From: Acrocarpospora phusangensis | GTDB lineage: Bacteria; Actinomycetota; Actinomycetes; Streptosporangiales; Streptosporangiaceae | Direction of reading: 5' to 3' | Length of the DNA stretch: 64,000 nucleotides | Assembly: GCF_016862995.1 (NCBI RefSeq) | Contig: NZ_BOOA01000028.1 | Span: 1 to 64,000, forward strand | Part shown: piece after piece, positions 23,502-40,761 of the stretch | Layout: every line of letters starts with the position of its first letter | How positions within the stretch are numbered: position 1 is the first letter of the stretch | Position numbers and translations under genes: made by a program | Notes under the pieces: model-generated | What the model was told of the DNA's origin: nothing | What the model saw: the letters and a program-made list of their open reading frames with translations, nothing else | Databases searched by the model: none

Positions 23502-24950
23502 GTGGGGGACGGCGAGGTGGGGGCGGTCGTCGTCGTTCGCCCGCGGGGAGTCGTACGGCGGGGCACCGCGTCGCCCGGATGGACGGTGCGGTATCGGGTG
23601 AGCGCGGCCGTGTCCGACATCATCTGTGCCTTTCTTGCCGGGGCCGCGGCGGTGCTGCTGCGGTTCGGGGAGGTCACTCCCTATGTGGAGCCTTACGTTC
23701 TGCTGAGTGGAACGCTCCCATTGTTATGGGTGATCGTCATGGGGCTCAACCGCGTATACGAGCCCAGACTGATCGGCGTCGGCTCCGAGGAGTTCCGCCG
23801 CATCGCCCAGTCCGGCATCGCGGTGATCGCCGCCGTCGCCATCGCCGCCTACGTCACCAAGACCGACGTGGCCCGCGGCTACGTGGTGCTGGCCCTCCCG
23901 CTCATGACCATCCTCACCCTCCTCGGCCGGTACGGCCTGCGCCGCGGCCTGCACCGCAGGAGATCCCGGGGCGGCTGCATGCGCAGGGTCGTCGCCGTCG
24001 GCCACCCGGAGGCGGTCGCCGACCTGGTCCGGCTGTTCCGCCGTGAGCGCTACCACGGCATGGACATCGTCGCCGCCTGCCTGCCCAAGGAGGGTCCCGA
24101 CGTCGGGGTTCCCGTGCTGGGCGACTTCTCCGACGTGCCCCTGGTGGTGAACAGCATCAACGCCGACACGGTCGCCGTGCTCGCCTGCCCGGAGTTCGAC
24201 GGGGTCGCGCTGCGGCGGCTGGCGTGGCTGCTGGAGCGAAGCCGTACGGACCTGGTGGTGGCGCCCGCGCTGATGGAGGTGGCCGGGCCGCGCACCACCA
24301 TCCGCCCGGTGGCCGGCCTGCCGCTGCTGCACGTGGAGCACCCGGAACTGGCCGGCGTCCGGCGGCTCATCAAGAACGGCTTCGACCGGCTGGTGGCGGG
24401 CCTGATCCTCGTGCTGCTGTCGCCGCTGCTGGCCGGCCTCGCCGTCGCGGTGAAGGCGACCAGTTCGGGCCCCGCGCTGTTCCGCCAGACCCGGATCGGC
24501 CGGGACGGCAAGGAGTTCACCATCCTCAAGTTCCGCACCATGGCGCAGGACGCCGAGCACCGGAAGATCCAGCTCGTCAGCGACGCCGACGGCGTGCTCT
24601 TCAAGATCCGGCGGGACCCCCGGATCACCCCGCTCGGCGCGCGCCTGCGGCGCTACTCGCTGGACGAGCTCCCGCAACTGATCAACGTGGTCAAGGGCCA
24701 CATGTCCCTGGTCGGCCCCCGCCCGCCCCTGCCCGAGGAGGTGGCCCGCTACGGCGACGACGTACGCCGCCGCCTGCTGGTCCGCCCCGGCATGACCGGT
24801 CTCTGGCAGGTGAACGGCAGATCCGACCTCTCCTGGGAGGAATCGGTACGGTTGGACCTGCGTTATGTCGAGAACTGGTCCCTGATGTTGGATCTTCAAA
24901 TCCTCTGGAAGACGTGGTCGGCCGTGGCACGCGGAGCAGGAGCGTACTGA
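23502..24950 (+). CDS. Polyprenyl-phosphate sugar-1-phosphate transferase (WbaP-like)
   Basis: Membrane enzyme of 482 aa that transfers a sugar phosphate from a nucleotide sugar to a polyprenyl phosphate, starting glycan assembly on the inner membrane face. The N-terminal half has four or five hydrophobic helices and a CoA-binding-like fold. The C-terminal catalytic domain has one helix (LVAGLILVLLSPLLAGLAVA), then FRQTRIGRDGKEFTILKFRTM, YSLDELPQLINVVKGHMSLVGPRP and the RPGMTGLWQVNGRS end, all typical of bacterial sugar transferases. GTG 23502 has GGAGG just upstream. It opens a plus-strand run into cysQ-cysD-cysN and is the likely first enzyme of the glycan locus. Confidence 0.92.
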   Translation: MGDGEVGAVVVVRPRGVVRRGTASPGWTVRYRVSAAVSDIICAFLAGAAAVLLRFGEVTPYVEPYVLLSGTLPLLWVIVMGLNRVYEPRLIGVGSEEFRRIAQSGIAVIAAVAIAAYVTKTDVARGYVVLALPLMTILTLLGRYGLRRGLHRRRSRGGCMRRVVAVGHPEAVADLVRLFRRERYHGMDIVAACLPKEGPDVGVPVLGDFSDVPLVVNSINADTVAVLACPEFDGVALRRLAWLLERSRTDLVVAPALMEVAGPRTTIRPVAGLPLLHVEHPELAGVRRLIKNGFDRLVAGLILVLLSPLLAGLAVAVKATSSGPALFRQTRIGRDGKEFTILKFRTMAQDAEHRKIQLVSDADGVLFKIRRDPRITPLGARLRRYSLDELPQLINVVKGHMSLVGPRPPLPEEVARYGDDVRRRLLVRPGMTGLWQVNGRSDLSWEESVRLDLRYVENWSLMLDLQILWKTWSAVARGAGAY

Positions 24951-24952
24951 GC

Positions 24953-25717
24953 ATGAAGACGATTCGCGACGACCACGCCCTCGCCGAAGATCTGGCGACC
25001 GAGGCGGGCGAGAGACTTTTACGGCTCCGCGCGCGGTACGGCTTCGACGACCCCAAGGCGCTCAAGGACGCCGGCGATCGCGAGTCCCACCGTTTCCTCA
25101 CCGAATCCCTGGAACGCCTGCGCCCGAGCGACAGTGTGCTGTCGGAGGAGGGCGACCGGCTGGACCCGGCCCGGTTGAAGGCGAGCCGCGTGTGGATCGT
25201 CGACCCGCTGGACGGCACCCGTGAGTTCGGCGAGGCCGGGCGGGCGGACTGGGCGGTGCACGTTGCCCTCTGGGAGGACGGCAGGCTCGCGGCGGGCGCG
25301 GTGGCGTTGCCCGCGCAGGGGCGTACCCTCGGGACGGGTAAGCCGCCGGTGTTGCCGCGCCACGAGGGGACCCGGTTCCGGATCGCGGTGAGCCGTACCA
25401 GACCGCCGGAGTTCGTGCAGAAGCTCGCCTACCTGGTCGGCGCCGACCTGGTGCCGATCGGCAGCGCGGGCGCGAAGATCTCCGCGGTGCTCACGGGCGA
25501 CGTCGAGGCGTACGTGCACGCCGGCGGGCAGTATGAGTGGGATTCGGCGGCTCCGGCCGCGGTCGCGCTCGCCGCGGGAGCGCACGCGAGCCGCATCGAC
25601 GGCACGCCGTTGACCTACAACCAAGCCGACCCGTCACTGCCGGATATCCTGGTCTCCCTACCGGATCTAGCGCCAACGTTGCTCGCTGGGATCCGTGACC
25701 TGCGTCGGCCGGTGTAA
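24953..25717 (+). CDS. cysQ: 3'(2'),5'-bisphosphate nucleotidase (CysQ, inositol-monophosphatase fold)
   Basis: 254-aa enzyme of the FIG superfamily. The metal site shows as SEEGDRLD and then WIVDPLDGTREFGE (motif DPLDGT), with the later W-D element seen as EWDSAAPAAVA. CysQ removes PAP, the product left by sulfotransferases, by hydrolysing it to AMP. The start ATG lies 2 bases after the sugar transferase stop and cysD follows after 26 bases, so it sits with PAPS synthesis genes; this context favours PAP phosphatase over inositol phosphatase. Confidence 0.9.
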   Translation: MKTIRDDHALAEDLATEAGERLLRLRARYGFDDPKALKDAGDRESHRFLTESLERLRPSDSVLSEEGDRLDPARLKASRVWIVDPLDGTREFGEAGRADWAVHVALWEDGRLAAGAVALPAQGRTLGTGKPPVLPRHEGTRFRIAVSRTRPPEFVQKLAYLVGADLVPIGSAGAKISAVLTGDVEAYVHAGGQYEWDSAAPAAVALAAGAHASRIDGTPLTYNQADPSLPDILVSLPDLAPTLLAGIRDLRRPV

Positions 25718-25743
25718 TCACCCCCAGATCAGAGGAAGCCCCA

Positions 25744-26658
25744 ATGCTTCAGCGCGACTACACGACGTCGCAGCTCGACGTCCTCGAAGCCGAGGCGATC
25801 CACATCATGCGTGAGGTCGCGGCCGAGTTCGAGCGTCCCTGCCTGCTCTTCTCCGGCGGCAAGGACTCGATCGTGATGCTGCGCATCGCCGAGAAGGCGT
25901 TCTGGCCGGCGCCGATCCCGTTCCCGCTCATGCACGTGGACACCGGCCACAACTTCAGCGAGGTCATCGACTTCCGGGACCGGCGGGTGGCCGAACTCGG
26001 CGCCCGGCTCGTGGTGGCCTCGGTGCAGGACTCCATCGACGCCGGCCGCGTGGTCGAGGAGACCGGCCGGCGGGCGTCGCGGAACCGGCTGCAGACCACC
26101 ACGCTCCTGGACGCGATCGAGGAGCAGGAGTTCGACGCGGTCTTCGGCGGCGCGCGCCGCGACGAGGAGAAGGCGCGGGCCAAGGAGCGCGTGTTCTCCT
26201 TCCGCGACGACTTCGGCCAGTGGGACCCGAAGAACCAGCGGCCCGAGCTCTGGAACCTGTACAACGCGAAGATCCGCAAGGGCGAGCACATCCGCGTCTT
26301 CCCGCTGTCCAACTGGACCGAGCTCGACATCTGGGACTACATCCGGCGGGAGGGCATCGAGATCCCGTCGATCTACTTCGCCCACACCCGCCGCGTCTTC
26401 GAGCGCGACGGCATGCTGCTGCCCGAGTCCGACGTGCTGGAGCGCGGCGACGACGAGCCGCTGTTCGAGGCGATGGTGCGCTACCGCACGGTCGGCGACA
26501 TCACCTGCACGGGCGCCGTCCCGTCCACCGCGAGCACGGTGAGCGAGATCATCGACGAGATCGCGGCGACCAGGATCACCGAGCGCGGCGCCACCCGGGC
26601 CGACGACCGGGCCTCCGAGGCGGCCATGGAAGACCGCAAGAAGGAAGGGTACTTCTGA
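25744..26658 (+). CDS. cysD: Sulfate adenylyltransferase subunit 2
   Basis: Catalytic subunit of the heterodimeric ATP sulfurylase, making APS from sulfate and ATP. The 304-aa product has the PP-loop LLFSGGKDSIVML, HVDTGHNF, GGARRDEEKARAKERVFSFRD and NWTELDIWDYI, all typical of CysD. Its stop shares a base with the cysN start (TGATG). No cysH, cysI or sirA is seen in the window, so the APS made here need not go to cysteine. Confidence 0.96.
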   Translation: MLQRDYTTSQLDVLEAEAIHIMREVAAEFERPCLLFSGGKDSIVMLRIAEKAFWPAPIPFPLMHVDTGHNFSEVIDFRDRRVAELGARLVVASVQDSIDAGRVVEETGRRASRNRLQTTTLLDAIEEQEFDAVFGGARRDEEKARAKERVFSFRDDFGQWDPKNQRPELWNLYNAKIRKGEHIRVFPLSNWTELDIWDYIRREGIEIPSIYFAHTRRVFERDGMLLPESDVLERGDDEPLFEAMVRYRTVGDITCTGAVPSTASTVSEIIDEIAATRITERGATRADDRASEAAMEDRKKEGYF

Positions 26659-27902
26659 TGGACATCCTCCGGTTCGCCACCGCGGGCTCCGTGGACGACG
26701 GCAAGTCGACGCTCATCGGCCGCCTGCTCTTCGACTCCAAGGCCATCTTCGAGGACCAGCTGGAGGCCGTCGAGCGCACCAGCCGGGACCGGGGCACCGA
26801 GTACACCGACCTCTCGCTGCTCACCGACGGCCTGCGCGCCGAACGCGAGCAGGGCATCACCATCGACGTGGCCTACCGCTACTTCGCCACGCCCAAGCGC
26901 AAGTTCATCATCGCCGACACCCCCGGGCACATCCAGTACACCCGGAACATGGTCACCGGCGCCTCCACGGCCGACCTGGCCATCATCCTGATCGACGCGC
27001 GCAAGGGCGTGCTCGAACAGTCGCGACGGCACGCGTTCCTGACCACGCTGCTGCGGGTGCCGCACCTGGTGCTCGCGGTCAACAAGATGGACCTGGTCGA
27101 CTACTCCGAGGAGCGGTTCGAGGAGATCCGCGAGGAGTTCACCTCGTTCGCGTCCAAGCTCAACGCCAGCGACCTGACCTTCATCCCCATCTCCGCGCTC
27201 CACGGCGACAACGTCGTCTCCCGCTCCGAGAACATGCCGTGGTACGAGGGCACCTCGCTCCTGCACCACCTGGAGCACGTGCACATCGCCTCCGACCGCA
27301 ACCTGGTCGACGTGCGCTTCCCCGTGCAGTACGTCATCCGCCCCCACAAGACCGAGTTCCACGACTACCGGGGCTACGCCGGGCAGGTCGCGGGCGGCGT
27401 GCTCAAGCCGGGCGACGAGGTCGTGCACCTGCCGTCCGGGCTGTCCACCAGGATCGCCTCCATCGACACCTTCGACGGCCCGGTGGACGAGGCGTTCCCG
27501 CCGATGTCGGTGACCCTGCGCCTCGAGGACGACATCGACATCTCCCGCGGTGACATGATCTGCCGGCCGAACAACCAGCCGGCCGCCAGCCAGGAGATCG
27601 ACGCGATGATCTGCTGGATGGCCGACGGCGTGAAGCTGCGCCCCCGGGCCAAGCTGACCATCAAGCACACCACCCGGACCGCGCGCGCCCTGGTCAAGGA
27701 TCTGCACTACCGGCTGGACGTGAACACGCTGCACCGCGACGAGACGGCCGCGGAACTGGCGCTCAACGAGATCGGCCGGGTCTCGCTGCGCATCACCCAG
27801 CCGCTGTTCGTGGACGAGTACGCCAGGAACCGGCTGACCGGCGGCTTCATCCTGATCGACGAGGCCACCAACGGCACCGTCGGAGCCGGGATGATCCTCT
27901 GA
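26658..27902 (+). CDS. cysN: Sulfate adenylyltransferase subunit 1 (GTPase)
   Basis: GTPase subunit that drives APS formation with CysD. The 414-aa product shows G1 GSVDDGKST, G2 region REQGITIDVAYRYF, G3 DTPGHIQYTRNM and G4 NKMD, then EF-Tu-like beta-barrel domains. It ends near residue 414 and has no fused APS kinase, unlike the CysNC of many actinobacteria; that activity is at 39544-40761. ATG 26658 overlaps the cysD stop by one base, so the longer frame from 26220 is a shadow of cysD. Confidence 0.96.
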   Translation: MDILRFATAGSVDDGKSTLIGRLLFDSKAIFEDQLEAVERTSRDRGTEYTDLSLLTDGLRAEREQGITIDVAYRYFATPKRKFIIADTPGHIQYTRNMVTGASTADLAIILIDARKGVLEQSRRHAFLTTLLRVPHLVLAVNKMDLVDYSEERFEEIREEFTSFASKLNASDLTFIPISALHGDNVVSRSENMPWYEGTSLLHHLEHVHIASDRNLVDVRFPVQYVIRPHKTEFHDYRGYAGQVAGGVLKPGDEVVHLPSGLSTRIASIDTFDGPVDEAFPPMSVTLRLEDDIDISRGDMICRPNNQPAASQEIDAMICWMADGVKLRPRAKLTIKHTTRTARALVKDLHYRLDVNTLHRDETAAELALNEIGRVSLRITQPLFVDEYARNRLTGGFILIDEATNGTVGAGMIL

Positions 27903-27987
27903 CTCTGGGTAGATCATTTAACGTTCCGTGAACATGTAGTTACTCTCCGCGCTAGCGTCGGCACGTTCCGCATCCACTTCGGGGGTC

Positions 27988-28905
27988 GTGCTCGTGTCAG
28001 ACGCTCAGCCGGTGATCTTCGTAGGAGGCCTCGGGCGCAGCGGCACCACGCTGCTGGAGCGCCTCCTCGGAGAGCTTCCCGGGGTCGCGCCGCTCGGTGA
28101 GGTCGTGCACCTGTGGCGGCGCGGCGTGCAGGCCGACGAACCGTGCGGCTGCCGCCAGCCGTTCGCGCAGTGCCCGTTCTGGCACAAGGTGGGCGAGCGC
28201 GCCTTCGGCGGCTGGCGGCCCGCCAAGGCGGAGCGGCTCCAGGAGCTGCGCGTCAAGGTGGACCGCACCCGGCGCGTCCCGGTGTTCGCGCTCGGCCTCA
28301 TCAGCCGCGAGGCCCAGCTGACCGAGTATGTCGCGTCGTACCACCGGATCTACGCCGCCGCCGCCGAGATCGTGAACGGGCGGGTGGTGGTGGACTCCAG
28401 CAAACACGCCTCGCTCGCGTACTGCCTGTCGGCGATCATGGATCTGCAGGTCGTGCACGTGGTGCGCGACCCGCGGGCCGTGGCCGCGTCCTGGCGCAAG
28501 CGGGTGGCCCGCCCGGAGGACGGCGCCCCCATGGCGCGCTGGACGCCCGTCAGGACCGCCCTGCACTGGCTGGTCCAGAACCTCGCCTTCGAGATGCTCC
28601 GGGTCAAGGGCGTGCCCGTGCTGCGGGTGCACTACGAGGACCTGGTCGAGGAGCCGACGCGGACGCTGCGCCGCCTCGCCGACCGTCTCGACCTGGCGTA
28701 CGGGGAAGGCGACCTCGACTTCATCACCGGCCACGAGGCCCGGCTCGGCGTCGCCCACACCGTCTCCGGCAACCCGATGCGCTTCGCCGTCGGCCGGATC
28801 AGGTTCCGCGAGAACCACGCCCACCTGCCCCTCCCGCACCGCTGGGCGGTCACCCTGATCACCCTCCCCTTCCTCCTCCGGTACGGCTACCGCCTCACCT
28901 ACTAG
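27988..28905 (+). CDS. Sulfotransferase family protein 1
   Basis: PAPS-dependent sulfotransferase of about 305 aa. The 5'-phosphosulfate loop is GGLGRSGTTLLERLL at the N-terminus; the 3'-phosphate site is VVHVVRDPRAVAASWRK; VVVDSSKHA lies between. A three-Cys stretch (CGCRQPFAQCPFW, about 50-62) is unusual and may bind metal or form disulfides. The acceptor is unknown. GTG 27988 and GTG 27994 are both possible. It follows cysN after an 85-bp spacer and precedes two glycosyltransferases, so a carbohydrate acceptor is most likely. Confidence 0.88.
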   Translation: MLVSDAQPVIFVGGLGRSGTTLLERLLGELPGVAPLGEVVHLWRRGVQADEPCGCRQPFAQCPFWHKVGERAFGGWRPAKAERLQELRVKVDRTRRVPVFALGLISREAQLTEYVASYHRIYAAAAEIVNGRVVVDSSKHASLAYCLSAIMDLQVVHVVRDPRAVAASWRKRVARPEDGAPMARWTPVRTALHWLVQNLAFEMLRVKGVPVLRVHYEDLVEEPTRTLRRLADRLDLAYGEGDLDFITGHEARLGVAHTVSGNPMRFAVGRIRFRENHAHLPLPHRWAVTLITLPFLLRYGYRLTY

Positions 28906-28937
28906 TCCTCGCCCATGAGTTTCGCAAGGAGAGTTCG

Positions 28938-29840
28938 ATGAACCCGTCCGTCGGCGTTGTCATCCCCACGCGCGGCGACCGGCCGGGCCCGCTGCGCGCC
29001 GCGCTCGAAGGCGTGCTCGGCCAGGACTACCCGCGGCCCGCCCAGGTCGTGGTCGCGGTGGACGGCGGCGACCCGATCGACGTCGCCGAACAGATCGCCG
29101 ACGCCGTCGCCGCCACCCGCGGCCGGGTCCGGGTGCTGCCCAACCGGCTCACCCCCGGCCTGCCCGGCGCGCGCAACACCGGCATCGCCGCCCTCGGCAC
29201 CGACCTGATCGCCTTCTGCGACGACGACGACGTCTGGCTGCCCGGCAAGCTCACCGCCCAGGTCGCCCGCCTCGGCGCCGCCGACTTCGCCTCCTGCGCC
29301 ATCGAGGTCGAGTACGGCTCCCGCCGCGTCCCCCGTACGGCGGGGCGCTCCGAGGTGACCGTGGCCGACCTGGTCAGGTCGCGGATGATGATGGTGCACT
29401 CCTCCACGTTCCTGTTCCGGCGCGGCGCGCTGTGGGTGGACGAGAGCGCCCCCGGCGGCCAGAACGAGGACTGGGACCTGGCCCTGCGCGCCGCCCGCCG
29501 CCAGCCCATCGTGTTCGTGGACGAGCCCCTGGTCCGGGTCCGCTGGGGGGCTTCGCAGTACGTCACCCGGTGGGCGGACCGGATCGCCGGGCTGGAGTGG
29601 ATGCTGGCCAGGCATCCCGAGCTGGCCGCCGATCCGCGCGGTTCCGCCCGCGTCTACGGGCAGCTGGCGTTCCACCACGCGGCGCTTGGGCATCGCCGGG
29701 AGGCCGGACGGTGGGCGCTGCGCGCCTTCGCGGCCCGGCGTGGCGAGCCGCGCGCGCCGATCGCGCTGGCCGTGGCCATCGGGCTGGTGTCCGCGCACGC
29801 GGTGCTGGCCGCGCTGCACACCCGTGGACACGGCATCTGA
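28938..29840 (+). CDS. Glycosyltransferase family 2
   Basis: 300-aa GT-A fold glycosyltransferase. It begins VGVVIPTRGDRPGPLRAALEG, has the nucleotide-sugar Asp in VVVAVDGGDP, PGLPGARNTGIA, and the DxD region FCDDDDVWLPGK. An acidic catalytic motif GGQNEDWDLALRA follows. ATG 28938 has AAGGAGAG upstream. The stop overlaps the next gene's ATG by one base. It should add a sugar to the lipid-linked chain; donor and linkage are not deducible. Confidence 0.9.
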   Translation: MNPSVGVVIPTRGDRPGPLRAALEGVLGQDYPRPAQVVVAVDGGDPIDVAEQIADAVAATRGRVRVLPNRLTPGLPGARNTGIAALGTDLIAFCDDDDVWLPGKLTAQVARLGAADFASCAIEVEYGSRRVPRTAGRSEVTVADLVRSRMMMVHSSTFLFRRGALWVDESAPGGQNEDWDLALRAARRQPIVFVDEPLVRVRWGASQYVTRWADRIAGLEWMLARHPELAADPRGSARVYGQLAFHHAALGHRREAGRWALRAFAARRGEPRAPIALAVAIGLVSAHAVLAALHTRGHGI

Positions 29841-30667
29841 TGGGGAAGAAGGCGTCCCTGCTCGCCGTACCCCCGCAACGGCTCGCGCCGGAACCGCGCG
29901 CACGGCGGCGACGGCGGGTGTCCGTAGCCGGGATCGAAGTGGACCGGCTGACCGAGATCCAGGTCGTCGACCGGGTCGTCGGGGCCGTGCGGCGCGGGCG
30001 CGGCGGGCATGTGATCACCCCGAACGTGGACATCTGCCGGGCGTGCTCGCGGGACGACGACCTGCGGGCCCTGGTGTTGAAAGCCGATCTCGCGGTGGCC
30101 GACGGCATGCCGCTGGTGTGGGCCGCCCGCATGCTCGGACGGCCGGTGCCGGCGCGGATCACCGGAGCCGACCTGATCTGGTCCCTGTCGGAGGCGGCCG
30201 CGTTCTACCGGATCCCCGTCTACCTGCTCGGCGGCCCGCCGGGCGTCGCCGACCGCGCCGCCATCGCCCTCTGCGACCGCTACCCCGGCCTGATCGTCGC
30301 CGGCGTGGACGCGCCCCCGACCGGCTTCGAGACCGACCCCGAGCGGTTCGACCAGGTCCGCCGCGCCCTCCTCGACGCCGCCCCCCGGCTCGTCTTCGTC
30401 GGCCTCGGCTTCCCCAAACAGGACCTCCTGATCGAACGCCTCCGCGCCGACCTCCCCGAAACCTGGTTCATCGGCTGCGGCTCCGCCATCGCCTTCGCCG
30501 CCGGCTCCGTACGGCGTGCGCCCCACTGGATGCGCGACCACGGCCTCGAATGGCTCTACCGCCTCACCACCGAACCCAGCCGCCTGGCCCGCCGCTACCT
30601 GATCGACGACCTCCCCTTCGCCCTCCGCCTGCTCCTGGTGTGTTTCGTACGACGCCTGTTCACCTGA
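29840..30667 (+). CDS. WecG/TagA/CpsF-family glycosyltransferase
   Basis: 275-aa GT26-type enzyme. Diagnostic stretches are HVITPNVDICRAC, DLAVADGMPLVWAARMLG, RITGADLIW, YLLGGPPGVA, RLVFVGLGFPKQDLLI and IGCGSAIAFAAG, then HWMRDHGLEWLYRL with the C-terminal basic appendage that docks to the membrane. Family members add the second sugar (ManNAc-type) to a prenyl-linked first sugar, which fits the priming transferase at 23502. Translationally coupled to the GT2 gene (TGATG). Confidence 0.9.
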   Translation: MGKKASLLAVPPQRLAPEPRARRRRRVSVAGIEVDRLTEIQVVDRVVGAVRRGRGGHVITPNVDICRACSRDDDLRALVLKADLAVADGMPLVWAARMLGRPVPARITGADLIWSLSEAAAFYRIPVYLLGGPPGVADRAAIALCDRYPGLIVAGVDAPPTGFETDPERFDQVRRALLDAAPRLVFVGLGFPKQDLLIERLRADLPETWFIGCGSAIAFAAGSVRRAPHWMRDHGLEWLYRLTTEPSRLARRYLIDDLPFALRLLLVCFVRRLFT

Positions 30668-30865: not shown

Positions 30866-31738
30866 TCAGCCGACGAGGGTGGTGACTCTGGAGGCGTCTT
30901 CGGGGGAGAGGCGGGTTCGGGTGGCGGCGGTGGCGCTGTCGGTGCGGCGGAACGCCGTACGGGAGAGGCCGGACCAGGTGAAGGGGCGGTCGGTGGCGGG
31001 GCCGGTGCAGGCGTGGCGGATGAGGTGGGCGGAGCGGTCCGTCCAGGTGAGGCCGGACCAGGAGTAGAGGTCGCGGAAGCCGTAGAGGGGGTCGGCGGCG
31101 AGGGATTCGTAGCTGACGACGCGGATGTTCGGGTGGGTGAGGGCGTCGGTGAAGTCGCGGGCCGCGCGCCAGAGGGCGGCGGCTTTGGCGAGGCGGTCGG
31201 TGGAGCCGACGTGTTCGCGCAGCGTGAGCAGGTGGGGGTGGTCGCGGACGAGCAGGGGTTGTTCGAGGAGTTCGTGGAAGTAGACCGTCCAGCCGAGGTA
31301 CTGCCAGCTGCCGACGAACGGGACCGGGTTCCGGGTCAGGATGATGACGCGGCAGTTCAGGCGGGTGGCGAACCAGGCTGCGGAGAACAGGGCGAAGGGG
31401 TCGTCCAGGAGGGCGCGGCGGCCGAGGAGGCAGCCGAGGGTGAACGCGGTGCCGTGTTTGAGCAGCCGGGCCAGGGAGCCGGGGCGGTGGTTGCGGCGGA
31501 GTTCGGCCAGGAAGCGGTAGCGCAGGGCGGTCGTGTCGGTGAACGCGGGGAGCCAGTCGGGCTCGTTGTCTTCGCAGATGTACTGGAAACGGGCGGGGGG
31601 TGGGGCGTTGAGGACGCCGGGGTAGCGGCGTTCGGGGTTGAGGGGCTCGTTGACGTAGACGAGTTCGCCGGAATGGCAGAGCATGCGGCCGGTCCAGCTG
31701 GTGCCGCTGCGGGGGAGGCCGGTGACGAGGATGGTCAT
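30866..31738 (-). CDS. Sulfotransferase family protein 2
   Basis: 290-aa sulfotransferase. The PAPS 5'-phosphosulfate loop is ILVTGLPRSGTSWTGRML and the 3'-phosphate site is VIILTRNPVPFVGSWQYLGW. It has little similarity to the other two sulfotransferases here beyond these motifs, so it probably has a different acceptor. Its ATG overlaps the stop of the flippase gene (ATGA), placing it last in the minus-strand operon that starts at 38313. Confidence 0.85.
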   Translation of the reverse strand: MTILVTGLPRSGTSWTGRMLCHSGELVYVNEPLNPERRYPGVLNAPPPARFQYICEDNEPDWLPAFTDTTALRYRFLAELRRNHRPGSLARLLKHGTAFTLGCLLGRRALLDDPFALFSAAWFATRLNCRVIILTRNPVPFVGSWQYLGWTVYFHELLEQPLLVRDHPHLLTLREHVGSTDRLAKAAALWRAARDFTDALTHPNIRVVSYESLAADPLYGFRDLYSWSGLTWTDRSAHLIRHACTGPATDRPFTWSGLSRTAFRRTDSATAATRTRLSPEDASRVTTLVG

Positions 31739-33354: not shown

Positions 33355-33357
33355 GGG

Positions 33358-34209
33358 TTAGCGGCGCCAGGAGGGGGTGGTGCCTAGCCAGGGCTGGAGG
33401 AGGACGTCCCAGGGGAGGAAGTGTTCGGAGAGGCGGTGGCGGAGGTGCGGGGGCATTTCGGGGCGGGGGCGGGGGTTGTGGCGGTCGAAGATGGGGTCGG
33501 TGAGGCGGGGGAGGCCGAGGAATTCGAGGATGCGGTCGTAGGTGGGTTCGGGGTCGGTGAAGAAGGTGCCGCTGTCGAGGACGAGGACGCGGTCGCGGCC
33601 GACCAGGAGGTCCAGGGGGGCCAGTTGTTCGGCGTAGCGGCCGCGGGAGACGTAGGCGTGGTGGCGGTGGGCGTGGCTTACGTATGAGGGGTCTTGTTTG
33701 AGGTTTTCGGCGGCGCCGGCGAGGCGTTCTTCCTCCAGGTCGAGGGCTCGCTCGAAGGAGGTCTCTGTTTCGAAGCCCCGGGCCAGTTCGTGGGCGAAGG
33801 CGGAGTAGGCGCGTTCGACCGGGTCGCGGACGAGGACGATCAGTTTTACGCCGGGGAGGTCCCAGGCGATCCGAGAAACCGCCAACGGGTGGAACAAGTA
33901 ATAGGGGGACGACTCGAAGGCCAAGGGGCGGTGGCCGTAGCGGTATTCGAGGCGGGCGGCGGTGGCGCGTAGCGGAAAATGGGCTCGATACCAGGACAGG
34001 CCTCGGTCGTAGGCCATGTCGAAGAAATGCACACCCTTGCGGAGCACGGGTTTCAGCATCAGAGGATGTTGCGACAGGGCGCGGTACAGCGATGTGGTGC
34101 CGCAGCGCTGGGCGCCGACGATCAGGAACGACGGGAGCATGCGGCCGCTCCCGGTCAGCCTCCCCGCGGTGATCGAAACCGCGTGAGCAGTGGTCTTCAG
34201 GGCGCTCAC
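33358..34209 (-). CDS. Sulfotransferase family protein 3
   Basis: 283-aa heparan/N-deacetylase-type sulfotransferase. The PAPS loop is FLIVGAQRCGTTSLYRAL, followed by KGVHFFD; the 3'-phosphate motif is KLIVLVRDPVERAYSAFAHE. This is the class that usually sulfates carbohydrates, which fits the neighbourhood. GTG 34209 overlaps the stop of the upstream APH-like gene (GTGA), and the flippase begins 3 bases after its stop. Confidence 0.9.
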   Translation of the reverse strand: MSALKTTAHAVSITAGRLTGSGRMLPSFLIVGAQRCGTTSLYRALSQHPLMLKPVLRKGVHFFDMAYDRGLSWYRAHFPLRATAARLEYRYGHRPLAFESSPYYLFHPLAVSRIAWDLPGVKLIVLVRDPVERAYSAFAHELARGFETETSFERALDLEEERLAGAAENLKQDPSYVSHAHRHHAYVSRGRYAEQLAPLDLLVGRDRVLVLDSGTFFTDPEPTYDRILEFLGLPRLTDPIFDRHNPRPRPEMPPHLRHRLSEHFLPWDVLLQPWLGTTPSWRR

Positions 34210-35576
34210 GGCAACACCTCCAGATGATCGAGAACGGGATTGAGCCAGTCAGAGGCGGGACCGAGCGGTTCGTGGTCGTCTCGGCGATGGCGGTCGGCCA
34301 GCGTCATCAGGTAGTGCGCGGCGGTCAGCCGAGCCTCCGCGAACGACAACCCGAACGGCTCCAGAATCCGCCCGGCCCTGCTGACACACGCCTGCGCCGC
34401 CTGACCGGGCCGCATCCGCCGCAACGCCCCATGAAAGAAGTGATGCAACGCGTCGAACCCGATCGGCACCCCAACCTCGAACCGCTCCCAGTCCCACACC
34501 AGCAACTCGCCGTCCCCACCCGCACAGACATTCCACGGCGAGAAATCCCCATGCCACGCCCCCGCCGGATCCAGTCCCGCGATTTCACTCACCGCCGCCG
34601 CCAGCAACTCCGCCCCAACCTTCCTCCGCCCACCCAGACCCCCCGGCGCCCAAGCCCCACCCCCGAACGGCAACCGCGCCCACCGCCCACCAGAGGGCCG
34701 AGCGAAAGAGGCGAAACCTGCCCCCTGCCCGAAGCCATGGGTGCCCGCCGACGAGGTCGGCCCGCCTGACCGTGTGGGGTTGATCCCGTGCGGGAGTCCG
34801 TGGGTGTTGGGCGACGAGGTCGGCCCGCTTGGGTATGCGGAGCTGGGTTCCTGCCCGAAGTCATGGGTGCTCGCCGACGAGGTCGGCCCGCTTGACCGTG
34901 TGGAGTTGGCTCCGTGCGGGAGCCCGTGGATGTCTGGGGACAAGGTTGGCCCGCTTGAGTATGCGGAGCTTGGTTCCTGTACGAAGCCGTGGGCGATCGG
35001 CGATTGGCCGGAGGGCGGCGCGATGGGGGATGCGAAGCCGGTCTCGCGTGGGACGTCGTCGATTGGCGTGGGAGACGGCGGATCGCTCCTGCGGTGGGTG
35101 CCGTTGGTTGGTAAGGGGGAGAGGAGGAGGACGTCTAAGTCTCGCCAGGTGCCGAAATGTAGGACGGTGGGTGGGGTTACGACCTTGAGGGGGCGGTCGT
35201 GGAGCATGCGGAGGGTGGCTGCTTCGTGGTGGACGAGGGCGCTTGTTCGGGGGTTGTCGCCGATTTTGACGAAGCCGAGGAGTCCGTCCGATCCGTACGC
35301 CTCCAGGATTGGTTTGCGGTTGGCTCGCCGGGCCGGGCGGACGTGGAGCACGGTGTGGATGGGTTGGCCGAGTATGTCGCTCAGGTACGTTTCGATCGTG
35401 TCGGGGCCGTCTCCGACCAGTACTCGACCACCGACGTGCCAGCGCGCACGAGGCACCAGCCGCCGGGGCACGAGCCGATGCGGGAGCAGGGTGCGGGCCG
35501 AGGTCCGGGACGACGGCGGGAACAGCATGGGGATCACCTCGTCGAGATAGCGCAGGCGGAGGTCGGCGTCGCTCAT
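34206..35576 (-). CDS. APH/ChoK-like phosphotransferase with minisatellite insertion
   Basis: 456-aa aminoglycoside-phosphotransferase-fold protein. N-lobe Lys is in GFVKIGDN (about 101-108), the catalytic loop is WHGDFSPWNV (341-350), and the metal motif is VWDWERF. Between the lobes, residues of about 180-300 are a Pro/Ser/Gly/His-rich insertion made of about 21-residue repeats (SGPTSSxxTHGFGQ and SGPTSSPNTHGLPHG alternate). Such kinases phosphorylate small molecules or sugars; in a glycan operon a sugar kinase is plausible but unproved. ATG 35576 overlaps the ligase stop (ATGA), preferred over an ATG five codons upstream. Confidence 0.75.
   Translation of the reverse strand: MSDADLRLRYLDEVIPMLFPPSSRTSARTLLPHRLVPRRLVPRARWHVGGRVLVGDGPDTIETYLSDILGQPIHTVLHVRPARRANRKPILEAYGSDGLLGFVKIGDNPRTSALVHHEAATLRMLHDRPLKVVTPPTVLHFGTWRDLDVLLLSPLPTNGTHRRSDPPSPTPIDDVPRETGFASPIAPPSGQSPIAHGFVQEPSSAYSSGPTLSPDIHGLPHGANSTRSSGPTSSASTHDFGQEPSSAYPSGPTSSPNTHGLPHGINPTRSGGPTSSAGTHGFGQGAGFASFARPSGGRWARLPFGGGAWAPGGLGGRRKVGAELLAAAVSEIAGLDPAGAWHGDFSPWNVCAGGDGELLVWDWERFEVGVPIGFDALHHFFHGALRRMRPGQAAQACVSRAGRILEPFGLSFAEARLTAAHYLMTLADRHRRDDHEPLGPASDWLNPVLDHLEVLP
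34741..34992 (-). repeat. 63-bp minisatellite, four copies
   Basis: GACGAGGTCGGCCCGC recurs at 34750, 34813 and 34876, and as GACAAGGTTGGCCCGC at 34939, exactly 63 bp apart. Alternate units are more alike, giving a 126-bp higher period (CTGCCCGAAG at 34725 and 34851, CTGTACGAAG at 34977). All units are translated in the APH-like gene. Confidence 0.85.
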
Positions 35577-37168
35577 GTGGCGTTCCGCCACAGCAGCGCG
35601 AACGAGATCAGGTAGAGGCTCAGCGCGGTGACCATGCCGTCGTAGATGAACATGTAGAACAGCGCCAGCACCATCACCAGCACTCCCGCCTGCCCGATCG
35701 GGGAGCGATCAGTCCAGTACCGCCGTACGGCTCCCGCGAAGAAGCCGGCGTAGAGGCACGCCCCGACGAAGCCCTGGGAGATCATCAGCAGCCAGAGCTG
35801 GCCGTCGCTGCCGAGGGGCGGGTGGCCGCAGGTGTCGCACCAGTCGCTCTTGCCGGTGGTGATCGTACGGTGGCTGCCGAACGCGTTGCGGGTGCTGCCG
35901 TACCCGATGATCGGGGAGGTGGCGGCGGTCTGGACGGTGGCGGAGACGGTGAAGGCGCGGATGTCGTTGCTGTGGGGGCTGTCCAGGCGCTGGGCGACCA
36001 TCGGAGCCAGCGGGGAGAGGACGAAGGCGGTGGCGGTGGCGGCGATGGCCGTACCGATGGAGAGGAGGCGGTGGGAGCGGACGGCCAGGTAGGCGAGGGA
36101 GAAGCCGAGGCCGATCCAGAGGCCGCGGTTGAGGGAGTAGACGATCGGGATGGCGGCGAGGGCGAGGACGACGGCGGTGAGAACTCTGCGGAGCGGGCCG
36201 CCGTAGCCCCACCAGCCGACGAGGAACCAGATGATCAGGACCGAGGCGTTGCTGCCCCAGGCGTTGGCCCATTCGAAGGGGGCCTCCGGGCGGGGGGAGG
36301 CGTGGCCGAGCACGTGCTGCATCTGGGCGGCGGTGGGGTGGATCAGGTTGGTGACGAAGGAGTTGCCGGAGATCCAGCGGGGGAGCACCAGCTCGACCGG
36401 GGACGTGAACGCGAAGTGCGGCATCAGCACGCCGAGCAGCCCGCCCGCGACCGTGGTGAGAAAAAGCGCGCCGAGCATGCGCACGAGCGCGAGCTGCGGC
36501 AGTTCCTCGCGGGTGAGGTTGCCCAAGTAGAGCACGACGACCAGCAGCGACAGATAGATGGCCAGCCGCATCACGTAGCCGGTCACCCGCCCGGCCGTGA
36601 GGTCCCCATAGGTGCCCTCAGGGGTCTCCGTCAGAGCGAAAGCACTGATCAGGTACCCCGCGATCAGCAACGCCCAAAGCCCGAACCCCTTGGGCACCTT
36701 GATCGGCCGCCGCCGGCACAGAATGACCAACATCGGAACGGCCACCACAATGACCGACAGGCCCCCGAAGCCGAGCGCCCACCACACGGGATATCCAACG
36801 AGCAACGCCCAAATCGGCCAGACAGCACCCCAGCTCACCCTCAGGCGGCTCATCAGCAGAGGACTCATGCGGCGGGGGCCCATCAAGTGAGGACCAACCG
36901 CGAAGAGACTCGCCGGCAGGCGGCAAGTCGCGAGGGAAGCCACCGGGAGAGGGCTCGCCGGCAGGCGGCCAAGTGCGAGGGAAATCACCGGTGGGCTCAC
37001 GGGCAGGCTACTGCGGTGTCCGATAACGTTCACCGGCTTGGAGTCGTGCGATCGCCGAGGCTGGCGAGGCGCTTCGACCCGGCGAAGGTTTGTGGTCACG
37101 GCACTGGCCGCGAGGGGAGCCGCCGGTAGAGGGCTCTCCGGTTGGCGGTCCGACGGGTGAGGGGTCAT
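35573..37168 (-). CDS. O-antigen ligase / polymerase family membrane protein
   Basis: 531-aa polytopic protein with about 11-12 membrane helices after residue 110 and a large extracytoplasmic loop. That loop contains YGSTRNAFGSHRTITTGKSDWCDTCGHPPLGSDGQ, with the conserved glycine/histidine region of the Wzy_C family and a CxxC pair. The role would be to polymerise or ligate the exported glycan. The first 105 residues are a low-complexity extension with 15-residue repeats (RLPASPLPVASLATC). ATG 37168 overlaps the Wzz stop (ATGA), which supports translation of this extension; MSPLLMSRLRV near residue 101 would be the conventional start. Confidence 0.85.
   Translation of the reverse strand: MTPHPSDRQPESPLPAAPLAASAVTTNLRRVEAPRQPRRSHDSKPVNVIGHRSSLPVSPPVISLALGRLPASPLPVASLATCRLPASLFAVGPHLMGPRRMSPLLMSRLRVSWGAVWPIWALLVGYPVWWALGFGGLSVIVVAVPMLVILCRRRPIKVPKGFGLWALLIAGYLISAFALTETPEGTYGDLTAGRVTGYVMRLAIYLSLLVVVLYLGNLTREELPQLALVRMLGALFLTTVAGGLLGVLMPHFAFTSPVELVLPRWISGNSFVTNLIHPTAAQMQHVLGHASPRPEAPFEWANAWGSNASVLIIWFLVGWWGYGGPLRRVLTAVVLALAAIPIVYSLNRGLWIGLGFSLAYLAVRSHRLLSIGTAIAATATAFVLSPLAPMVAQRLDSPHSNDIRAFTVSATVQTAATSPIIGYGSTRNAFGSHRTITTGKSDWCDTCGHPPLGSDGQLWLLMISQGFVGACLYAGFFAGAVRRYWTDRSPIGQAGVLVMVLALFYMFIYDGMVTALSLYLISFALLWRNAT
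36905..37010 (-). repeat. 45-bp tandem repeat in the ligase gene N-terminus
   Basis: TCGCCGGCAGGCGG begins at 36910 and again at 36955, followed each time by a GCGAGGGAA-type block. A weaker third unit starts near 36997, and another related block lies at 37109-37147. The 45-bp unit encodes 15 residues. Confidence 0.7.
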
Positions 37169-38313
37169 CGGGTGGGCTCCGTTGCGACCACTACGGGGGG
37201 TACGGAGAGCACGCCGAGGACGGTGGTGCCGCGTGCGGTGAGGGAGCGGGTGGCGTGGGCGACCTCTTGGGCGCGGGTGCGGCGGAGGCCGACCAGGAGT
37301 ACGGCGGACGGGGCACGGCCGTTGGTGACCAGGTCGAGGGTGGGGAACTCGGCGGCGATCAACGGGGCGGCGGTCGTGCCGACGGGTTCCAGGAGGACCG
37401 GGCCTTCGGGGAACAGGTCGGAGAGGGTTTCCGCCAGGGTGCCGATGTCCTTGGCCGGAAGCTCGGCCAGGAGGGGCAGCGCGGTCAGGCGTTCGATGTC
37501 GGCGGGGACGCGTAGCCGGGTGTCCAGGCGGTCGCGGGTGAAAGCCGACACGGCTCCCGTCAGGACGCCTAGAAAGAGACCACTGCCGAGATAGAGCGGA
37601 GGGCTGGGAGTGCTTGCGCGCAGCGGCGGGCGGGCTGGGCTGATCACTGTGCCGGGGGTGATCGCGGTGGTTTTGAGGGTGTCGTATTTCAGGGTGAGGC
37701 TGTAGGACTGCCGGCTGAGCACCGCCTGCTGGTGCGCGGTGACGGCGCGCTCCGCCGAGCCACGGGCGAGTGGCGCCAGCGTGACCGCCACCCGGCTCAG
37801 CGACACGTTGACCTGCCGGAGCTTCACCAGCAGCGCCCGCATCTGCGCGAGCAAAGTCTGTTGCGCGGCCTCCGCCCGATGCCGCAGGTACGCGTCCGCG
37901 AACGCCTGAGCCCCCGCCGCCGCCACCACCGAATCGGGCGCCGCAAACGAAATCCTGAGAATTCCGGAATTCGGCGGAACATCAACCCGAACCCGATACC
38001 GCAACGCTTCCGGATCTGTATTTTTCAGGATTTCGGCCGCCTTCGCGGCAACCACGGATGATTGGGCGATCTGCGCTTCGGTATCCAAATTGAGTGGTTC
38101 ACGCTGGCGCTGGGTGACCTGATTGACCTGTTCCTGCACCCCGGTCGGCAACACCTGCACTTCCGCCGTCGCCGTGTACGCCCGAGGCGTGCCCACCAGC
38201 GCCCCCACCCCACCCGCCACCCCCGCCAGCAGGCACACCACCACCAGCCACCGGCGGCGCCGCAGCACGGAACCGTACTCGGCGAGATCCCGGCTGTGCG
38301 GGGGCAGGCTCAT
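37165..38313 (-). CDS. Wzz-like chain-length determinant / polysaccharide co-polymerase
   Basis: 382-aa protein with the co-polymerase layout: short cytoplasmic start, helix 1 (WLVVVCLLAGVAGGVGALVG, about 22-41), an extracytoplasmic stretch with TATAEVQVLPTG and coiled-coil character, and helix 2 near residues 240-260 (LYLGSGLFLGVLTGAVSAF). A degenerate cytoplasmic C-terminal part lacks Walker motifs and tyrosine clusters, so it is not an active BY-kinase. It is the first gene of the minus-strand glycan operon; its stop overlaps the ligase start. Confidence 0.82.
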   Translation of the reverse strand: MSLPPHSRDLAEYGSVLRRRRWLVVVCLLAGVAGGVGALVGTPRAYTATAEVQVLPTGVQEQVNQVTQRQREPLNLDTEAQIAQSSVVAAKAAEILKNTDPEALRYRVRVDVPPNSGILRISFAAPDSVVAAAGAQAFADAYLRHRAEAAQQTLLAQMRALLVKLRQVNVSLSRVAVTLAPLARGSAERAVTAHQQAVLSRQSYSLTLKYDTLKTTAITPGTVISPARPPLRASTPSPPLYLGSGLFLGVLTGAVSAFTRDRLDTRLRVPADIERLTALPLLAELPAKDIGTLAETLSDLFPEGPVLLEPVGTTAAPLIAAEFPTLDLVTNGRAPSAVLLVGLRRTRAQEVAHATRSLTARGTTVLGVLSVPPVVVATEPTR

Positions 38314-38507: not shown

Positions 38508-39542
38508 ATGTTCATCGTCAAACGGGGGATCGTCGCGCTGGCTCTGGTCACCGGCTGCGCCCCCGCCTCCGGCACCGGCGCCGGCCCGGCCGCCCGTCCG
38601 GACGGCCTCCTCCGCCAGGAGACCACCTGCGTGGTCACCGACAAGCTCATCCCCACCTGCGGCGCCTGGTGGGGGATCGCGCCGGACGTCTTCACCGGCA
38701 CCCCGCCCGCCCGCGCGGTCCAGCGCGCCGAACAGCGCATGGGCCGCCCGGCCGACATCGTGCACGTCTACCACCGGGGGGAGGAGCTGTTCCCCACCGA
38801 CCAGGAGCGCCAGCTGGCCACCGGCCCGCGGATGCTGCTGATCAACTGGAAGCCGTCCCGGACCAGGACCTGGGCGCAGATCGCGCGCGGCGCGCTGGAC
38901 GAGCGCATCGACGCCCTGGCCGCGCACATCACCCGGACCTTTCCGGGGCGCTTCTTCCTGACCATCCACCACGAACCGGAAAACGACGTGCACTCCAAGC
39001 CGGGGATGTCCGCCCAGGACTACGCGGCCATGTACCGGCATGTCGTGAACCGCCTGCGCAAGCAGGGCGTACGGAACGCGGTGACCGTCATGACGTACAT
39101 GGGCGCGCCCAACTGGGCCACCAAGCCGTGGTTCGACCGGCTCTACCCCGGTGACGACGTGGTCGACTGGATCGGCCTGGATCCGTACGCGGACAACCGG
39201 GTCAGTGACTTTTCCACGCTGGTGGACAAGACGAGGCCGGATCACCCTCGCTGGCCGGGCTTCTACCGCTGGACGCAGTCACGCTTCCCCGGCAAGCCGA
39301 TCATGGTGTCGGAGTGGGGGGCGTTCGAGCGCAAGACCGCTCCCCGGTTCAAGACCGACTTCTACGCCTCGGTGCGCGCCCAGATCCGCGACTACCCGCA
39401 GATCAAGGCGCTCGTCTACTTCGACTCGGCGTTCGCGCCCCGGGGGGACACCCGCTTCGACACGACGCCGGAGTCGGCGGCGGCTTTCACCCAGCTCGCC
39501 CGCGAAGCGCATTTCGCGGCGACGAAGGTCCCCGTGCAGTGA
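38508..39542 (+). CDS. Secreted GH26-like glycoside hydrolase (putative lipoprotein)
   Basis: 344-aa exported protein. The start VKRGIVALALVTGC fits a lipobox (LVTGC), so it may be lipid-anchored. The catalytic pair expected for GH26 (clan GH-A) is seen as FLTIHHEPEND (acid/base Glu) and MVSEWGAFE (nucleophile Glu), with WIGLDPYADN between. GH26 enzymes cut beta-mannans or related glucans. Divergent from the glycan operon, it may trim or release the polymer made there. ATG 38508 is the only start giving the signal sequence. Confidence 0.85.
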   Translation: MFIVKRGIVALALVTGCAPASGTGAGPAARPDGLLRQETTCVVTDKLIPTCGAWWGIAPDVFTGTPPARAVQRAEQRMGRPADIVHVYHRGEELFPTDQERQLATGPRMLLINWKPSRTRTWAQIARGALDERIDALAAHITRTFPGRFFLTIHHEPENDVHSKPGMSAQDYAAMYRHVVNRLRKQGVRNAVTVMTYMGAPNWATKPWFDRLYPGDDVVDWIGLDPYADNRVSDFSTLVDKTRPDHPRWPGFYRWTQSRFPGKPIMVSEWGAFERKTAPRFKTDFYASVRAQIRDYPQIKALVYFDSAFAPRGDTRFDTTPESAAAFTQLAREAHFAATKVPVQ

Positions 39543-39543
39543 G

Positions 39544-40761
39544 TTAGCGGATCCAGCCGCCCGAGATGAGCCGGTTGAGCACCGTGGACACCGCGCGCTC
39601 AACCGGCATGTCGGTCGTGTCCAGTTCGAGGTCGGCGTCGTCAGGCTCCTCGTACGGCGCCGACACCCCCGTGAACTCCGGGATCAGCCCCGCCCTGGCC
39701 TTGGCGTACAGGCCCTTGCGGTCGCGGCGTTCGCACTCCTCCAGAGGCGTCGAGACGTGCACCAGCACGAAGTCGGCGCCCACGGCCTCCACCATCTCGC
39801 GCACCTCGTCGCGGGTGTCCGCGTGCGGGGCGATCGGCGCGCAGATGGCCAGCCCGCCGTGCCGGGCCACCTCGGCGGCGACGAACCCGATGCGGCGGAT
39901 GTTCAGGTCGCGGTCCTCGCGGGAGAACGTCAGGCCCTTGGACAGCAGCCGCCGCACCACGTCGCCGTCCAGGTAGGTGACCGTGCGCCCGCCGCGCTCC
40001 AGCAGGGCGTCCCGCAGGCCGCGCGCGACGGTCGACTTGCCGGAGCCGGACAGTCCGGTGAAGAACACCACGAGCCCGCGCCGGTGCGGCGGCCCGGGGA
40101 TGCTGACCGGGGCGGGCCCGGCGTAGTGCTCGGTGGCGCCGTAGTTCGCGGCCACGTGCTCGCGCAGCTCCAGGTCGATGGCCGGGTCCTCGCGCGGCGC
40201 CAGCGGCACGGCCACCACGGTCGAACCGGGCAGCTCCGCGGACGCCTTCAGCGCGGCACGGACCACGGCCGGCCCCGCCTCGCCGTACACGAGGGGGAGC
40301 AGCAGCACGGCGGCGTCGAGCTCCTCGGCGGTGGCCGCGATGTCCTCGACGGCGGAGGAGTCCAGCGGCCCGCGCATGGTGACGGCCAGCACGTCGTCGG
40401 GCAGCTCCTTGCGCACCTCCGCCGGGGTACGGCGCAGCCGCGCGAACGGCCCGTACACCGGCGACCCGAGCGCCTCCAGACGCCCGGCGACGTGATGCCC
40501 GTTCCGCTCAGTGATCTCCAGAACGGCCAGCGCTGCGCCCTCCGGATCGGTCAGCCTGATGTGGCCGCCGAGGTCCTCGGGGAGCGCCAGCGTGATCGCG
40601 TCCGGCCACGGCGTGCCGTCGGCGAGCTGCCCGTGCTCGGTCACGCTCGCGACGTCCGCCGCCCCCAGGAAGCCGGTCAGCGGCGCGTACGCACCCGACA
40701 ACAGGAGTTCCAGGTCGGCCAGCTCCCGGGGGTCGGGAGTCCACTCGGTCGCTTCGGTCAT
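39544..40761 (-). CDS. cysC: Adenylylsulfate kinase with N-terminal degenerate ATP-sulfurylase-like domain
   Basis: 405-aa two-part enzyme. The C-terminal APS kinase (about 228-405) has the P-loop FFTGLSGSGKSTVARGL, DGDVVRRLLSKGLTFSREDR, and the FTGVSAPYEEP loop, and makes PAPS from APS. Residues 1-225 resemble the PUA-like and catalytic parts of single-chain ATP sulfurylase (LLLSGAYAPLTGFLG), but the catalytic QxRNPxHxxH motif is missing (only VTMRGPLDSS), so this part is probably structural or regulatory. It supplies the missing step between CysDN and the three sulfotransferases. It ends one base from the convergent GH gene. Confidence 0.9.
   Translation of the reverse strand: MTEATEWTPDPRELADLELLLSGAYAPLTGFLGAADVASVTEHGQLADGTPWPDAITLALPEDLGGHIRLTDPEGAALAVLEITERNGHHVAGRLEALGSPVYGPFARLRRTPAEVRKELPDDVLAVTMRGPLDSSAVEDIAATAEELDAAVLLLPLVYGEAGPAVVRAALKASAELPGSTVVAVPLAPREDPAIDLELREHVAANYGATEHYAGPAPVSIPGPPHRRGLVVFFTGLSGSGKSTVARGLRDALLERGGRTVTYLDGDVVRRLLSKGLTFSREDRDLNIRRIGFVAAEVARHGGLAICAPIAPHADTRDEVREMVEAVGADFVLVHVSTPLEECERRDRKGLYAKARAGLIPEFTGVSAPYEEPDDADLELDTTDMPVERAVSTVLNRLISGGWIR

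Follow-up and report, generated by a model that had tools for sequence, protein, structure and literature searches.

A wps-1-type locus in Acrocarpospora phusangensis, predicted to make a sulfated glycan, contains the only ATP sulfurylase genes found in the genome

The first 64,000 nucleotides of contig NZ_BOOA01000028.1 of Acrocarpospora phusangensis (assembly GCF_016862995.1; this whole stretch is referred to below as the window) contain, at positions 23502–40761, a locus of 15 genes that we predict to direct the synthesis and sulfation of a glycan. Gene calls used open frames and the GC content at third codon positions (0.80–0.97 for the frames of the locus), and the genes were scanned with Pfam and NCBIfam (Table 1). 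A plus-strand operon reads primer (a priming sugar transferase), cysQ, cysD, cysN, ST1 (one of three sulfotransferases, ST1–ST3), GT2 (a family 2 glycosyltransferase) and wecG, and faces a minus-strand operon reading wzz, wzy, kinase, ST3, wzx and ST2, with 198 bases between wecG and ST2. An earlier reading of the window, made by a model from its letters and open reading frames (the original prediction), listed the genes correctly, each being present on the strand given, although it left the kinase-like gene unnamed. Its two facing operons with overlapping genes are also as described, the coordinates giving overlaps of 1–19 nt (cysD/cysN and GT2/wecG, 1; ST2/wzx, ST3/kinase and wzy/wzz, 4; kinase/wzy, 19), although the glycoside hydrolase family 26 (GH26) gene on the plus strand and the adenosine 5'-phosphosulfate (APS) kinase gene on the minus strand are a converging pair outside both. 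A promoter scan gave 0 sites and an Rfam scan of 20–44 kb gave 0 matches.

Table 1. Genes of the locus, with coordinates in the window. PAP, 3'-phosphoadenosine 5'-phosphate; PAPS, 3'-phosphoadenosine 5'-phosphosulfate; APH, aminoglycoside phosphotransferase.
Predicted product	Coordinates	Strand	Supporting matches
Priming polyprenyl-phosphate hexose-1-phosphate transferase	23502..24950	+	PF02397 Bac_transf 8e-67; TIGR03025 over cut-off
CysQ-like PAP phosphatase	24953..25717	+	PF00459 Inositol_P 3e-30; TIGR01331 matched, under cut-off; nearest solved sequence a chain named PAP phosphatase, 3e-71
CysD, ATP sulfurylase small subunit	25744..26658	+	PAPS_reduct domain 2e-44; NCBIfam over curated cut-off
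CysN, ATP sulfurylase large subunit	26658..27902	+	GTP_EFTU 1e-44; TIGR02034 over curated cut-off
Sulfotransferase ST1	27988..28905	+	PF13469 Sulfotransfer_3 4e-19
Glycosyltransferase family 2 (GT2)	28938..29840	+	PF00535 1e-17; start set by alignment to relatives, frame open from 28902
WecG/TagA/CpsF glycosyltransferase	29840..30667	+	PF03808 7e-55
Sulfotransferase ST2	30866..31738	-	PF13469 3e-9
Wzx-type flippase with low-complexity insert	31735..33354	-	PF01554 MatE and PF13440 Polysacc_synt, 4e-7
Sulfotransferase ST3, related to heparan sulfate sulfotransferases	33358..34209	-	PF13469 2e-13
Kinase-like protein (fructosamine-kinase/APH fold) with repeat-rich insert	34206..35591	-	No Pfam match of its own; orthologue model and fold search; weak Pfam matches in relatives
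Wzy-type polymerase/ligase-family protein	35573..37168	-	Wzy_C matched by 9 of 12 aligned family members, best 1e-8
Wzz-type chain-length protein	37165..38313	-	PF02706 9e-8
GH26-like hydrolase, lipoprotein signal by eye	38508..39542	+	PF02156 4e-5; GH26 structures to 1.5e-10
APS kinase with N-terminal PUA_2 domain	39544..40761	-	Pfam APS kinase 3e-56

Three of the 14 Sulfotransfer_3 matches in the 9.11-Mb genome lie within the locus, where about 0.03 would be expected by chance in 17 kb, and 11 lie elsewhere. Alignment of eight ST3 sequences shows an invariant R..GT of the loop and a later invariant R...S, and R-S-G and R...S are likewise invariant in a nine-row alignment of ST1 and ST2; we take these to be the 5'-phosphosulfate loop and the 3'-phosphate motif, by which all three proteins fit PAPS-dependent sulfotransferases. 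The ST3 profile matches heparan sulfate N- and 3-O-sulfotransferases (PDB 3bd9, 1t8t and 1nst) at 2e-12 to 8e-18, its best structure match overall being 3rnl (3e-24), a chain named just 'Sulfotransferase'; the same list contains two kinesin-light-chain-like repeat chains at about 1e-8 that are apparently spurious. The heparan sulfate enzymes are named for their acceptor, whereas that of ST3 is a prediction. Two more sulfotransferase pairs are present in the same genome (G000:C63:27051-28711, L023; G000:C1:176452-184643, L024), the first of them near a large glycosyltransferase-like protein recognized by eye, and one relative (G011) has six ST3-family copies in two runs (contigs C136 and C118).

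The kinase-like protein was modelled through its Acrocarpospora catenulata orthologue (L036), with a predicted local distance difference test score (pLDDT) of 81.6. The closest fold is that of a putative fructosamine-3-kinase (2.7e-6, TM-score 0.48); the matches ranked after it are mostly protein kinases, interspersed with aminoglycoside phosphotransferases, and the residues that we take to form the usual kinase pattern are invariant across 14 aligned sequences. A role as a WbdD-like chain-terminating kinase was considered and is kept as an idea; the sequence match is weak (E 0.003) and the best fold match is fructosamine-kinase-like. Both the kinase gene (63/126-bp repeats, 34724–34993) and wzx (33-bp repeats, 32730–32880) contain tandem repeats encoding long low-complexity inserts, at positions where relatives have gaps or other inserts; the available stretches of three Acrocarpospora loci end within wzx.

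The genome is a 9.11-Mb draft rated 100% complete. PF01507 has four matches in it: the CysD of the locus, a CysH on contig C46, a DndC on C33, and a weak protein on C67 that sits in an apparent mobile element. The DndC (5e-208) belongs to a DNA phosphorothioation set (L022, G000:C33:1-10000), in a stretch where third-position GC is low and where, by eye, a transposase-like gene lies close by. One copy of CysD was thus found in the whole genome, and PF01747, the ATP sulfurylase catalytic domain, has no match in it. The APS kinase of the locus is also the only one found. Its N-terminal PUA_2 domain is like that of ATP-sulfurylase fusions, and a second ATP sulfurylase hidden in such a fusion was ruled out, the catalytic domain being missing; Q[TV]RN, which we take to be a sulfurylase motif, occurs neither in the window protein nor in any of 27 extracted homologues (some truncated), all of which have the P-loop.

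As the original prediction had it, neither cysH nor a sulfite reductase gene lies beside the cysDN genes of the locus, and the separate cysH/sirA locus that it suggested looking for is present elsewhere in the genome, on contig C46. The neighbours of the C46 cysH encode a sulfite/nitrite-reductase-family protein and a sirohydrochlorin-chelatase-like protein, neither of which exceeds an NCBIfam cut-off. The C46 CysH falls just under the cut-off of the TIGR02055 APS_reductase model (234.6 bits against 235.3) and far under that of the TIGR02057 PAPS_reductase model (170 against 254), is over the cut-offs of two general models named phosphoadenylyl-sulfate reductase, and contains two cysteine pairs, which we take to be typical of APS reductases. 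It probably, though not certainly, reduces APS directly, in which case the APS kinase and CysQ would not be needed for assimilation. Because CysDN is the only ATP sulfurylase found, it would also have to feed the distant sirA-cysH, and we infer from this copy number that it serves two branches, the locus being a shared branch point. The original prediction had called the locus self-contained, a description that is not supported, and had held that a reductase set depending on this cysDN as its only copy would count against a PAPS cycle dedicated to the glycan; such a dependence is what the copy numbers point to as far as the ATP sulfurylase is concerned.

A scan of genome contigs with WecG gave 24 named loci, from Acrocarpospora, Herbidospora, Planomonospora, Sphaerisporangium, Streptosporangium, Nonomuraea and Spongiactinospora, the nearest being those of other Acrocarpospora species (WecG 85–88%). 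ST1, GT2, WecG and ST2 are present in all 24, Wzx in 23, ST3, the kinase and Wzy in 20, Wzz, GH26 and cysN in 19, primer, cysQ and cysD in 17, and the APS kinase in 14. The four loci without ST3, kinase and Wzy (L033–L035 and L046) are short stretches ending within or near wzx, and L048 ends at wzy; in some loci several kilobases separate cysN and ST1. Herbidospora and Nonomuraea are not known to form true sporangia, and if they form none the polymer would not be a sporangium product only. Flanking the locus of the window, an Rv2179c-like exoribonuclease gene (22849–23421, just below the Pfam cut-off) lies between pth and the primer and is found in 12 of the 24 loci. At 40839–42595 there is an extracytoplasmic function (ECF) sigma factor gene, with a gene overlapping its end, back to back with the APS kinase gene; both are retained in seven Herbidospora loci, and the sigma factor is a possible regulator of the locus.

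Searches of 120 Streptosporangiaceae genomes scored at most 14 Wzy and 20 ST3 candidates in each (a wider search of the class scored at most 5), so absences may be overcounted. CysD was found in 119, CysH in 116, Wzy in 82 and ST3 in 85, with Wzy and ST3 together in 81, and the Wzy family (E <= 1e-15) is represented in 47 of the 68 genera. ST3 lies within 10 kb of 86 of 88 Wzy matches, at a median distance of 2.2 kb, and for the other two there is no ST3 on that contig; together with the conservation of ST1, GT2, WecG and ST2 in the named loci, this bears out the expected linkage of sulfotransferases and glycan genes across the family. In six genomes (G004, G015, G044, G062, G070 and G095) there is a second Wzy that is not near cysD but again has an ST3 relative no more than 10 kb off. 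The distance from wzy to cysD is 6–32 kb in 70 of the 82 Wzy genomes, and in 12 the two are on different contigs. In none of the 116 genomes having both is cysH within 40 kb of cysD, and in the 16 where they share a contig they are nearly 1 Mb or more apart. There is one CysD match in 105 of these 116 genomes and more in 11. One genome (G016) has two extra divergent cysD copies (C5:458034 and C11:18918; 49–51% identity to that of the window) lying 1–4 kb from sulfotransferase matches, and dedicated cysD copies may exist elsewhere in the family.

Twenty of the 38 Wzy-less family genomes were picked by hand, and up to 19.5 kb around cysD was taken from each. All 20 have pth, cysQ, cysD and cysN together; mfd is in view in 13, an APS kinase homologue in 10, the kinase in 9, primer in 7, GT2 in 4, and ST1 and ST3 in 3 each. 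Twelve of these 20 genomes were scanned for Sulfotransfer_3, and all have matches (1 to 12 each); none lies near the pth-site cysD, apart from a weak match some 15 kb off in G018. These results indicate that the sulfate-activation set cysQDN is anchored at this site, and that what varies there is the glycan genes.

In a wider sample of 296 genomes of the class, 57 have a Wzy match at 1e-30 or better, 23 of them Streptosporangiaceae and 34 of other families. Matches at E <= 1e-70 occur in 20 out-of-family genomes, of 10 further families, and the 15 of these stretches that were fetched (those of G160, G177, G191, G308 and G393 being left out) all have ST3, with the kinase in 14; the gene order around this core varies between families. 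Five weak matches were also fetched, and because ST3 is near Wzy in just one of them, weak matches are not counted as members. Among these 20 genomes (15 strong and 5 weak), cysD is within 20 kb of Wzy in four, two of them among the weak five, so the tie to cysDN is mainly a Streptosporangiaceae feature. The distance between cysDN and cysH was rejected as a sign of dedication, since cysH is not near cysD out of the family either: 15 of the 20 genomes have a cysH match, and only second copies, in G215, are within 40 kb of cysD.

The closest known system is the wps-1 cluster of Actinoplanes missouriensis (AMIS_7280–7380, with neighbour AMIS_7390), reported in June 2026 (PMC13390465). Its authors predict a sulfated extracellular polysaccharide and show that sporangia do not form normally without the cluster. 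Sporangia are squashed when wpsA, C, G, H, I, J or K is deleted, and damage follows loss of genes described as GT2, WecG, Wzx, a heparan-type sulfotransferase (their name for WpsH), a kinase, Wzy and Wzz; deletions of wpsE and wpsF give partial or other defects, wpsD being dispensable and wpsF not. As described there, wps-1 has in common with the locus GT2, WecG/TagA, GH26, Wzx, a heparan-type sulfotransferase, a kinase-like protein, Wzy and Wzz, together with a further sulfotransferase and a neighbouring Sat/APS-kinase-family gene, and the run Wzx–sulfotransferase–kinase–Wzy–Wzz is in the same order in both. The locus adds a priming transferase, a third sulfotransferase and cysQ-cysD-cysN, whereas DUF4262 (WpsD) and methyltransferase (WpsF) genes of wps-1 have no Pfam counterpart among its 15 genes, and we therefore call it a wps-1 variant with the same working parts and not a strict member. 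The text available contains neither 'cysD' nor 'PAPS', nor any genus beginning 'Streptosporang'.

Other systems are more distant. The xss cluster of Synechocystis PCC 6803 makes synechan, in which sulfate has been measured (PMC8205485), and is likewise a Wzx/Wzy system with sulfotransferases (two in xss), but it lies on a cyanobacterial plasmid and has eight glycosyltransferase genes, and 'PAPS' is not in the text. Vibrio sp. KMM 8419 (PMC11641403) and Cobetia marina KMM 1449 (PMC11766843) have polysaccharide clusters with PAPS genes and sulfotransferases, the latter also with cysQ, but these are ABC-transporter capsules of Gram-negative marine bacteria, and the Vibrio cysCDN are second copies whereas those of the locus are the only ones found in the genome. 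The text of a paper in mBio on sporangium-matrix hydrolases (PMC12691653) describes GH5 enzymes and contains neither 'sulfat' nor 'GH26'. In the literature searched we found no paper pairing Streptosporangiaceae with sulfotransferase, or sulfotransferase with Wzx, Wzy and actinobacteria; as far as these searches show, a locus of this kind was first characterized genetically in 2026. It was fair of the original prediction to say that sulfated polysaccharides are rarely reported from this group, although with wps-1 the idea is no longer new.

We favor the reading, to which we give a probability of roughly 0.73, that this is a wps-1-type locus for a Wzx/Wzy-made sulfated, and perhaps phosphorylated, cell-surface or extracellular heteroglycan, with CysDN shared with assimilation. 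The observed gene content, copy numbers and conserved linkage carry it, and a sulfated Wzx/Wzy product, as predicted from these comparisons and from the genetics of a similar cluster, is well supported. The activities of the enzymes, the order of the steps and the placing of sulfate on the polymer are predicted as follows. The primer would put hexose-1-phosphate on undecaprenyl phosphate, GT2 and WecG would add sugars, and ST1, ST2 and ST3 would sulfate the lipid-linked unit in the cytoplasm using PAPS, with the kinase-like protein perhaps phosphorylating it. Wzx would then flip the unit, Wzy polymerize it and Wzz set the length, and the GH26 protein would trim or remodel the polymer outside. 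CysDN would make APS, both for the APS kinase (CysC), which would make PAPS, and for the distant sirA-cysH, and CysQ would remove PAP.

Several points weigh against this reading. That the sulfotransferases take this glycan as their acceptor, and do so in the cytoplasm, is a prediction. The Wzy of the window has no Pfam match of its own, its structure model (pLDDT 54) was too poor for a fold search and was not used, and the fold matches of the kinase-like protein have TM-scores below 0.5. The genome is a draft of 219 contigs, and no count given here is adjusted for relatedness. Of the 20 Wzy-less genomes, nine have none of ST1–ST3, kinase, Wzx, Wzz and GH26 in view; mfd is also in view in five of these (L061, L062, L065, L073 and L076), so that the pth–mfd interval is there seen whole, and others of the 20 contain remnants or divergent versions. 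Because cysQDN is retained without the glycan core genes, cysDN is no marker of the glycan. The likeness to wps-1 is one of described gene content, and the authors of that work report that deletion of wpsB, the other sulfotransferase gene, leaves sporangia normal by scanning electron microscopy, with about tenfold fewer spores released, and that sulfate in the polymer still awaits verification (PMC13390465).

The alternative that fares best, although we think it improbable, is that the sulfotransferases modify a glycolipid or some other small acceptor, leaving the neighbouring polymer unsulfated. Sulfotransfer_3 is a broad family, 11 of whose 14 matches in the genome are outside the locus, and the glycan is a predicted acceptor; against this, ST3 lies within the Wzx–Wzy operon and stays beside Wzy in 86 of 88 family matches and in 15 of 15 strong out-of-family ones, and its solved relatives include polysaccharide sulfotransferases. 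Less probable still is the view of the original prediction that the whole PAPS cycle is dedicated to this glycan, which would leave assimilation to another source of APS. The placing of cysQDN in one operon with primer, ST1 and the glycosyltransferases speaks for dedication, as do its position within 32 kb of Wzy in most Wzy genomes of the family and the existence in G016 of extra cysD copies near sulfotransferases, but the genome has one CysD and no PF01747 enzyme, a single CysD match is the rule in family genomes with cysH, cysQDN persists at the pth site without the glycan core genes, and the 11 Sulfotransfer_3 matches outside the locus would also need PAPS. About as improbable is a sulfate-activation site where envelope genes gathered by chance and were kept together by shared ancestry without function, since, although the pth site of the 20 Wzy-less genomes shows the position of cysQDN to be partly inherited, Wzy, ST3 and the kinase occur together in other families too, where cysD is near Wzy in only 4 of 20 genomes, and the counterparts of ST3 and Wzy in A. 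missouriensis are reported in the text available to share a mutant phenotype (PMC13390465).

Taking the shared sulfated-glycan locus as the preferred reading, we put forward a broader and distinctly tentative proposal, which we consider somewhat less probable than its contrary. Wzx, the heparan-type sulfotransferase, the kinase, Wzy and Wzz may be an old, class-wide actinobacterial core for a sulfated, phosphorylated, glycosaminoglycan-like surface polymer with a role beyond sporangia, which in Streptosporangiaceae settled around the cell's only sulfate-activating genes, so that one APS pool would serve glycan sulfation and cysteine and the two might be co-regulated. Deletion of AMIS_7390, the Sat/APS-kinase-family gene, causes severe defects that the authors called unexpected and linked to sulfur amino acids; the plates included a rich medium, and the text available does not cover cysteine synthesis in the mutant (PMC13390465). 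The defect may instead be a loss of sulfation, APS kinase being needed for PAPS, and if assimilation in A. missouriensis reduces APS directly then the APS kinase would only feed sulfotransferases. Our reading offers an explanation for the finding that loss of this gene spoils sporangia. Apart from those of cyanobacteria and some marine capsules, bacterial sulfated glycans have little documentation; if our reading is correct, a sulfated polymer would be common in soil actinomycetes, and each of these genomes could supply glycan sulfotransferases with sequence similarity to the heparan sulfate enzymes.

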